This document shows positions 30,583 through 62,844 of a stretch of DNA of 64,000 nt, one piece after another. The position numbers and the translations under genes are program-made. Numbering within the stretch: the first letter of the stretch is position 1; every line of letters begins with the position of its first letter. Source of the stretch: Candidatus Hydrogenedentota bacterium (GTDB taxonomy: Bacteria > Hydrogenedentota > Hydrogenedentia > Hydrogenedentales > JAEUWI01); contig JAHBVV010000021.1 in NCBI GenBank assembly GCA_019637335.1, positions 1 through 64,000 of the forward strand. The letters are read 5' to 3'. The notes under the pieces are model-generated. The model was not told the DNA's origin, made no database searches, and saw nothing but the letters and a program-made list of their open reading frames with translations.

Positions 30583-30860
30583 GTGACCTGGTAACACTTT
30601 AGCGATCTGAAGTGCGGAACAGTATGTGTTTTTACTGATGGAGCCGGTGTGCATGGAACGCCGGCGGGCCGCCGGCGCTCCATAGTTGTCTTGCGCCGGG
30701 GGCGCAATGCCGGCGGGCCGCCGGCGCTCCATAGCTGTCTTGCGCCGGGGGCGCAATGCCGGCGGGCCGCCGGCGCTCCATAGTTGCACGTAGCCTTTAT
30801 TCAACGAGTCGCTCTGGTTTGGCCACTGTGCTTCGTTCGGCTAAAGTGATACGTAACCTG
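30583..30860. mobile_element. Family-B TIR element, copy B1, with three 49-bp hairpin units
   Basis: Element 30591-30852 (262 bp): left end GTAACACTTTAGC, right end GGCTAAAGTGATAC, flanked by GTGACCTG (30583-30590) and GTAACCTG (30853-30860), an 8-bp target duplication with one change. The interior has three units with period 49 bp (GCTCCA at 30677, 30726, 30775), each with TTGCGCC-GGG-GGCGCAA and GCCGGCGG-G-CCGCCGGC hairpins. Outer sequence matches the larger copy at 41.8-42.4 kb. Confidence 0.85.
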
Positions 30861-41695: not shown

Positions 41696-41807
41696 CGTGG
41701 GCCTGATCTGGCGCCCGAGCCAAGCGGCGCGGGCCGTGAAGAGTGCGTCGCCATTGTAGCCCGCCGCGCCCCCCGGCGCCTATCCCAGGGCAATCGCTTC
41801 TAAACTT

Positions 41808-42419
41808 CCAGTTCGGTAACACTTTAGCGTTCTGAAGTGCGGAACAGTATGTGTTTCTACGAATGGATCCGGTGTGCATGGAGCGCTGGCGGCCCGCCGG
41901 CATTGCACCGAAGGTGCGAGAACTCATTGCCGGATCCCTCCGGCGGCACGCCGCTTCTGATGCAACGGCGGCATTTCCAGAACGCTGTATTGCGCCTGCG
42001 GCGCAATCTGCCGGCGGGCCGCCGGCGCTCCATAGTTGTCTTGCGCCTGCGGCGCAATCTGCCGGCGGGCCGCCGGCGCTCCAAAGTTGTCTTGCGCCCG
42101 CGGCGCAATCTGCCGGCGGGCCGCCGGCGCTCCATAGTTGTCTTGCGCCCGCGGCGCAATCTGCCGGCGGGCCGCCGGCGCTCCATAGTTGTCTTGCGCC
42201 TGCGGCGCAATCTGCCGGCGGGCCGCCGGCGCTCCATAGTTGTATTGCGCCCGCGGCGCAATCTGCCGGCGGGCCGCCGGCGCTCCATGGTTGTCTTGCG
42301 CCTTGCGGCGCAATCTGCCGGCGGGCCGCCGGCGCTCCATAGTTGCACGTTGCCTTTATTCCGCAAGTCGCTCTGGTTTGACCACTTTACTTGGCTCGGC
42401 TGAAGTGTTACCCAGTTCG
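41808..42419. mobile_element. Family-B TIR element, copy B2, nested in copy A2
   Basis: Element 41816-42411 (596 bp) with ends GTAACACTTTAGC and GCTGAAGTGTTAC, flanked by the perfect 8-bp duplication CCAGTTCG (41808-41815, 42412-42419). The duplicated bases belong to the family-A sequence, showing insertion after A2 was in place. The interior is mainly the seven-unit hairpin array. Confidence 0.9.
41988..42345. repeat. Seven-unit 51-bp double-hairpin array
   Basis: Units end at GCTCCA at 42027, 42078, 42129, 42180, 42231, 42282 and 42334: five periods of 51 bp and one of 52. Each unit holds two perfect dyads, TTGCGCC-nnn-GGCGCAA and GCCGGCGG-G-CCGCCGGC. Differences between units are single bases. 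Frames through it read as long repeated peptides on both strands, which are not genes. No spacers vary, so it is not CRISPR. Confidence 0.92.
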
Positions 42420-42736
42420 AGCCGAGCACCATACGAACCACGAGAAATGTTGGCAAGGGCGCGTGTTGGAGCGCTGGCATTTCGCCCGCGGCGAATCCCG
42501 GACCTTGCCGGCAGAAATGCCGGCGCTCCAACACGCTCACTTTCATTGAATCAAGGATCCGAATCAAGTCAAGCTTACGCCCAAATGCCGCGATCGGGTT
42601 TAATTGCGATTGCCCCCGGCGCCTATCCGGGACCGCGCCGAAAACTCTTGCCTCCCGGCGCGGCCTGTGCTTAAATGAACGCGCCCTGCTGGTACAAAAA
42701 CCCGGCGCTCTCCCGCCGGTAAGGAAGGAGTACCGA

Positions 42737-46621: not shown

Positions 46622-46872
46622 CAGACGCACCCCCCAGGGCAATCGCATTTAAACTTCCAACTCGGGCCGAGCGCCACATGATCCACCTTCAACGTTAGAA
46701 AGGGCGCGTGTTGGAGCGCTGGCATTTCGCCTGCGGCGAATCCCCGACCTTGCCGGCACAGATGCCGGCGCTCCAAAACGCTCGCTATCGTTGATTCAAG
46801 GTTCCAAATCTACTCAAGTTTACGCCCATATACCGAGATCGAGTCTAAATGCGATTGCCCAGACGCGTCCCC
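46622..46872. mobile_element. Family-A TIR element, copy A3 (intact)
   Basis: Element 46635-46859 (225 bp), ends CAGGGCAATCGCATTTA and TAAATGCGATTGCC, flanked by CAGACGCACCCCC (46622-46634) and CAGACGCGTCCCC (46860-46872), a 13-bp duplication with two changes. The inner inverted repeat is at about 46708-46780. This is the simplest copy and gives the reference length of the family. Confidence 0.88.
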
Positions 46873-56692: not shown

Positions 56693-57797
56693 AGATTTGC
56701 TCCCCCGGGCAATCGCATTTGAACTTGGTGTAGGAGCCGATCGCCGTACGAACCACTGGAACATCAGAAAAGGTGGCTCATCCGGTTTGAGCGTGATTTT
56801 TCGGGTGCTGGCGGAGAGCAACCGTAACGATGGTTCGCGGAGCTGGGGAGAACGGAGCGGTAAAGCTTGACTGACGCGTTCCATGGTGCGCCAACGTGTG
56901 TTGGGCATCTTGCCTGACACGGCGGCAGCCCGCTTTTCCGCCGTGATCTGCCGCTGGGACGGGTGGCGCGGCGCCCTTCGTCAGCCTGAAAGGCTAAGCC
57001 ACGTTGGCGGGCGTTGAAGGATTGCGGTAATTTTGGATCCACGGCGGCTCTGTCGGAATTGGCCGGGAATTGTTGTCCGGCAGTCGGGACGTTAATGAAG
57101 CGTGGCGCGGATTCATTGGGCCAGCCTCTGGCGGCGGCCAAAGAAATGATCACCACGAAGGGCAGTTAGAGATGAAGTTTTTGAAGGCGGCCGTGCCAAT
57201 GTGTTTGTTATGGAGCCGAGTCGGGATGCGAGGTCGATGCGCGGGGGGGATTGGATCGGGGGCCACAAAGAGCACAGAGAACACAAAAGATTTGTTTGAA
57301 CCGGAAGTGAGCGCGAATGGACTGAGCGCGGCCTTTGGCCGCGATCTGGAGTTTTGACCACGGATTACACGGATTGCACGGATAGAAGGAATTCGATGAG
57401 TTCCAACCGCGATTGGTAACGAATGAAGGAAGTATCGTATCGCCTTGGGAGTCCGAGGCTGTGTTTTGTGGCGTTGATGGGCCGTTCGAAGGCGCCGCTC
57501 GCGCTGCGTCAGCCTGGAAGGCTAACCCACGTTGGCCACCCATGTAGAGACTGGGGTTATCTTCGTTCGGCCAGACATTAATCGTCGGTCCAAGTACGCC
57601 AAGACGGGATGAACCAGAAAATGGCTCGTGTTGGAGCGCTGGCGTTTCGCCCGCGGCGCATCCCTGACCTTGCCGGCAGAGATGCCGGCGCTCCAGCACG
57701 CTCACTTTCGTTGATTCAAGGCTCTGAATCAGCACAAGTTTACGCGCCCATTTGCCACGATCGGGTATAAGTGCGATTGCCCTGAGATTTGCTCCCC
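56693..57797. mobile_element. Family-A TIR element, copy A4, with a large internal insertion
   Basis: Ends CGGGCAATCGCATTTGAAC (from 56706) and GTGCGATTGCCCTG (to 57784), flanked by a perfect 13-bp repeat AGATTTGCTCCCC (56693-56705, 57785-57797). The outer parts match other family-A copies; about 800 bp in the middle do not. Within that insert a segment of roughly 45 bp recurs with the core CGTCAGCCTG (about 56977-57017 and 57510-57545). A phrase GACCACGGATTACAC at 57356 recurs at 62993. No gene is supported inside. Confidence 0.78.
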
Positions 57798-62302: not shown

Positions 62303-62844
62303 ATTTCTTCGTAACATTTTAGCCGTCTGAAGCAGCGAGCAAGTAAAGTTCCCGGCCCTCCGGTGATTTCCGAGAAAGCACGGCAAAAGGATCGCAGGCA
62401 TTTCCGCCACGGCGCACCTTCGGCCTGCCGGCGGCAACGTCTGCTTCGGCTATCAGCGGGTACGGCTGGCCTGGAACAAATTCCCCGCGTACCCTAATCC
62501 GGAATGCAACGGGGACCGGGGCCATTTCTCAAGCGCAGCGATCACATGAAGTCTTGCGCTCTTCCTGCCGCGGACAAGAATGTCCGCGATCCTTTGCGCC
62601 TTTCGGGGCTTTGGACAGGCGGGACGCCTATCCTACATTTGCGCCTTTCGGCGCTGAACACAGGCGAGACGCCTGTGCCACTTTCTTTTCGAGGTGGTTT
62701 TGGTGGGGGGCAGGGGATTTATTTGGCAGCGGGCTTACTTTGCCGCGGACAAGAATGTCCGCGATCCTTCGCTCCACGCTCTCTTGTCCGAGACATGCGT
62801 TCACAGCAGAAGCACCTCATTCCGCTAAAGTGTTACATTTCTTC
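62303..62844. mobile_element. Family-B TIR element, copy B4
   Basis: Element 62311-62836 (526 bp), ends GTAACATTTTAGCC and CCGCTAAAGTGTTAC, flanked by the perfect 8-bp duplication ATTTCTTC (62303-62310, 62837-62844). The interior has a 29-bp repeat at 62566-62594 and 62741-62769 holding the dyad GCGGACA-AGAA-TGTCCGC, and AGGCGGGACGCCT-type hairpins. No gene. Confidence 0.85.

Follow-up and report, generated by a model that had tools for sequence, protein, structure and literature searches.

The 64,000-bp stretch of a Candidatus Hydrogenedentota genome analyzed here (the window) contains a MITE of IS4 type (family A) that is split by a MITE of IS66 type (family B), and at least 13 A copies in the genome carry IS66-type inserts. 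The sequence-only reading of the window, which described the nested locus at 41773 to 42628, missed this recurrence of nesting, at least a dozen times and at preferred positions. The history that we favor, with a probability of roughly 0.9, is that A came first and B later entered it at A position 23, and that nesting recurs because A carries target sequences preferred by the IS66-type transposase and insertions into this non-coding DNA are probably tolerated.

Anatomy and history of the nested locus

The family-A element extends from window position 41786 to 42617 and is split by the family-B element at 41816 to 42411. Read from left to right, the locus starts with CCGGCGCCTATCC (41773 to 41785) and enters the left part of A (41786 to 41815, plus strand, A positions 1 to 30), which opens with the terminal repeat CAGGGCAATCGC and closes with CCAGTTCG (41808 to 41815, A positions 23 to 30). 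It continues with the 596-bp B element (plus strand, ends GTAACACTT and AAGTGTTAC), a second CCAGTTCG (42412 to 42419), the right part of A with its hairpin core and terminal repeat GCGATTGCCC (42420 to 42617, plus strand), and a second CCGGCGCCTATCC (42616 to 42628). No strand applies to the duplications or to the tandem array within B described below. The two copies of CCAGTTCG border the insert exactly as a perfect 8-bp duplication and CCGGCGCCTATCC stands at both outer edges, which confirms the proposal that one mobile element lies inside another with both duplications present. The restored sequence is also collinear with A, as had been claimed: with the A flanks joined, 195 of 230 positions match the 228-bp family-A consensus, and the alignment holds across the junction, so the misalignment at the insertion point that would have refuted the sequence-only reading did not occur. 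An uninterrupted A copy is located at 46635 to 46862 (plus strand), where the flanking repeat is imperfect.

The outer repeat was first described as a 13-bp duplication, and it is indeed perfect over 13 bp; its length as a duplication is doubtful given the family norm of 10 bp (here GCGCCTATCC, 41776 to 41785), with 14 exact duplications at 10 bp and 1 at 11 bp among 57 solo A copies with flanks. Family A usually ends in ...GCCCTG, but the terminal TG is missing from the nested copy, the last two bases of which overlap the 13-bp repeat. The boundaries first assigned to A (41786 to 42615) agree with ours to within this ambiguity of the right end. The 13-bp repeat is probably a 10- to 11-bp duplication lengthened either by chance or because the tip has changed, although a true duplication of 12 to 13 bp could also be present because the A-ended element at about 56706 to 57785 seems, by eye, to have a 12-bp flanking repeat. 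The identity of the restored copy to the consensus (195/230), compared with a median of 96% for solo copies, places it among the more diverged, and probably older, members of the family.

B contains a tandem array (41986 to 42345, folding z = -3.1) of seven 51-bp units with two hairpins each, and slippage is the likely cause of this array alone. An account in which slippage expanded the array and the flanking repeats are there by coincidence would fit the true tandem structure of the seven units and the different lengths of B copies. However, the array is internal to B and away from its ends, and many sites have far shorter elements with an 8-bp duplication and these terminal repeats, so that this account has next to no chance of being correct. 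Both families moved by insertion with target duplication rather than by slippage, as the sequence-only reading held, and B entered an A that was already in place. In the history that we favor, a non-autonomous IS4-type A would have inserted between two divergent genes with duplication of about 10 to 13 bp, and an IS66-type B would then have inserted at A position 23, duplicating 8 bp; the chemistry of these transposition steps, as well as which transposase moved which copy, is what we infer from the elements.

Two MITE families and their transposase-bearing partners

Family A has a 228-bp non-coding consensus with CAGGGCAATCGCATT ends. When 46635 to 46860 was used as a query, at least 40 genomic places matched over most of the query length, and, with up to two mismatches allowed, the genome has 213 occurrences of the 15-bp terminal repeat and 5 of the reversed control. 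Flanking repeats of 10 bp with no more than two mismatches were found in 38 of 57 distinct solo copies, while 0.5 are expected when flanks are re-paired at random, which places the family-A duplication at about 10 bp. A 2,066-bp element at C28:81109-83174 carries perfect copies of both A terminal repeats and encloses a broken transposase with DDE_Tnp_1/IS4 matches. Its frame contains the IS4 Y(2)R(3)E(6)K (YREK) signature (YRIRWQIELVFKRFK); its NF033592 match (E value of 5e-19) is under the family cut-off because the gene is broken. Positions 1 to 22 of A align to the left 22 bp of this element and positions 47 to 228 to its right 171 bp, with the right 182 bp of A at 79%. Judged by these shared ends and flanks, the YREK signature and the IS4Sa-like ends, A derives by internal deletion from a decayed IS4-family element of this genome. 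Because that partner is decayed, no active source for A was seen.

IS4 elements are defined by the YREK signature and duplications of about 10 bp, and the IS4Sa subgroup has 5′-CA ends with T at position 9 (PMC2266710). Family A shares the 5′-CA ends, the T at position 9 and the duplications of about 10 bp, and its partner shares the YREK motif. Unlike IS4Sa elements, A is non-coding and, as a deletion derivative, 228 bp long, and its decayed partner, at 2,066 bp, is above the listed IS4Sa size range (PMC2266710). The window holds two further loci with A sequences. One is a diverged A copy on the minus strand at 2145 to 2359 with an 8-bp flanking repeat, and the other is the A-ended element at 56706 to 57785 (∼1.08 kb), the flanks of which seem, by eye, to have the 12 bp AGATTTGCTCCC in common and most of the middle of which matches locus L092 at 90%.

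Family B is part of a group of MITEs of IS66 type (ISBst12-like) that have GTAACACTT ends and duplicate 8 bp of their target. B and related elements number dozens in the genome and have GTAACACTTYAGC ends in common, with 88 perfect 15-bp ends compared with 1 for the reversed control. Exact 8-bp duplications are present in many B-type copies, and 43 rows, in which a few elements are counted twice, show the duplication with at most one mismatch. The length of B copies is variable, in the nested copy through the 51-bp units. An intact single-ORF IS66 element of 1,525 bp at C4:200366-201890 has the same ends as B and encodes a 493-aa transposase that matches NF033517 with 280 bits (cut-off, 180). 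The terminal 22 to 24 bp of B are at 91 to 92% to the ends of this element, which start with GTAA; a matching target duplication around the element was looked for and none was found. The mobilizer of B was most likely a transposase like the one encoded there. Six other transposase candidates (L108 to L111, L114, and L115) carry neither the ends of A nor those of B and were not retained as partners.

The ISBst12 group includes ISDge4, for which the reported features are one ORF, an end with GTAAC and a repeat of 8 bp (PMC12898284). The intact IS66 element agrees with this group in its single transposase ORF and in ends of GTAAC or similar, but lacks the 8-bp direct repeat, while family B agrees in both ends and direct repeat. 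B differs from the group in having no transposase gene and in carrying tandem 51-bp hairpin units, and a further point of difference is the symmetric target consensus seen in the present genome. Elsewhere in the window, another B copy of 262 bp is found at 30591 to 30852 with the duplication GTGACCTG/GTAACCTG, and an IS66-type element of 526 bp at 62311 to 62836 with the exact duplication GAAGAAAT. Despite their different IS families, B (41878 to 42340) and A (42455 to 42542) have a common hairpin core, GGAGCGC-GGC...GCCGGCGCTCC, short matches to which are also present in congeners; both families may have captured a dispersed hairpin.

Recurrent nesting and target preference

An unbiased set was obtained from the sequences flanking the 88 perfect B-type ends, which represent 87 distinct ends, and 9 of its about 81 B-type elements lie inside A. 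Together with loci fetched via A ends, this set yielded the count of at least 13 nested A copies; in L103/L125, L118, and L080 the insertion was verified from one side only. The inserts occupy A positions 9 (six), 56 or within one base of it (four), 156 (two), 164 (one), and 23 (one, the window locus). The A copy in L119 apparently has an IS66-type element inserted at position 9 and a second insert, 284 bp long and not of IS66 type, at position 63. Formation of a single composite that then spread by the ends of A, with the recurrent nestings as copies of one event, would explain why the outer element is always of one type and why the positions are few. However, the inserts at position 9 differ in IS66-type subfamily and in length, those at position 56 are of at least three types, and the position-23 case of the window was seen only once. 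Since different IS66-type insert families are present at the same A position, these are separate insertions, and we regard a single copied composite as extremely improbable.

A symmetrized matrix of the duplicated target sites shows a central octamer rich in A/T, bordered by T-rich sequence on the left and A-rich sequence on the right, with a preferred target of roughly TTT-(8 bp, SAAWWTTS)-AAA. A test matrix, built from 37 insertions outside A only and scored along the A consensus (209 positions), ranks A positions 9, 23, 56, 156, and 164 as 9th, 17th, 2nd, 7th, and 4th of 209, and none of 200,000 permutations did as well. The target weight of A is 12 times the window mean and 7 times the mean of the non-coding part of the window; G+C content is 64% in the genome and 53% in the A element. 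Expected counts were estimated from about 81 elements, an A copy number of about 107 and a non-coding share of 15%, the last a crude value from the window. With weighted targets and survival in non-coding DNA only, 11.1 of 81 elements are expected in A, compared with the 9 observed, while uniform models predict 0.3 (genome) or 1.8 (non-coding; P of about 1e-4).

The excess of B-type elements in A might instead come from selection alone, with A marking safe non-coding DNA and no target preference involved, since surviving insertions would be expected to gather outside genes. This is very unlikely, as the uniform non-coding model falls well short of the observed count and the insertions fall on only a few positions in A, which a matrix built from insertions elsewhere predicts. 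We retain target preference plus tolerance: the IS66-type transposase favors a symmetric A/T-rich target that is scarce in the genome and present several times in A, where insertion into non-coding DNA would probably do little harm.

Position 9 received 6 of the 14 insertions, compared with about 0.2 expected, an excess that the matrix does not explain and that comes from a small sample, picked after looking, and a matrix that pools several subfamilies. This position is within the left terminal repeat, and the equivalent place in the right repeat has no insertions. Position 17 is the best-scoring site, yet it has none, which the matrix likewise does not explain. The ends of other transposons are targeted by some elements, as by IS4321/IS5075 in repeats of Tn21 type. 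It is thus conceivable that IS66-type transposases treat the left terminal repeat of A (positions 9 to 16) as a special target beyond base preference, one family having become specialized for insertion into the ends of a second; we consider this unlikely and offer it as a tentative suggestion.

Spread among relatives and significance

The nearest named relatives are Candidatus Hydrogenedentota genomes, and the closest genomes compared belong to different species, with the best coding matches at the locus at about 77% DNA identity. In congeners, matches to the two genes flanking the locus are on different contigs, and the intergenic DNA has no alignment. Family A was not found in three congeners and 56 further relatives beyond short matches of 22 to 49 bases. 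The perfect B-type end, with its 88 occurrences here, occurs twice in one congener and is absent from the two others. On these genome comparisons, the expansions of A and B look essentially confined to one species. REP/RAYT-type dispersed hairpins go with a RAYT (Y1) transposase and have no terminal repeats and no target duplication; A and B have both, and on these two features this assignment was rejected. MITEAba12 and other bacterial MITEs (PMC6382973) are likewise short, non-autonomous, IS-derived elements; they differ in host, and in the present genome two unrelated MITE groups nest repeatedly. The literature searched contained no account of MITEs in Hydrogenedentota and no paper on IS66 MITEs. 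The two MITE families are new, their kind is already known and the mechanism is ordinary; their value is as an example of nesting brought about by target preference.

IS66-family transposition has been called insufficiently characterized (PMC12898284). The present genome offers dozens of mapped IS66-type insertions that have duplications; these allow a symmetric target preference to be deduced and checked against an independent set. One hot spot in the terminal repeat, A position 9, is left to explain. For most cases special targeting is not needed, and the numbers show that nesting can follow from target preference together with tolerance of non-coding insertion. The analysis also records how two MITE families expanded, for the most part within a single species of a phylum that has received little study.
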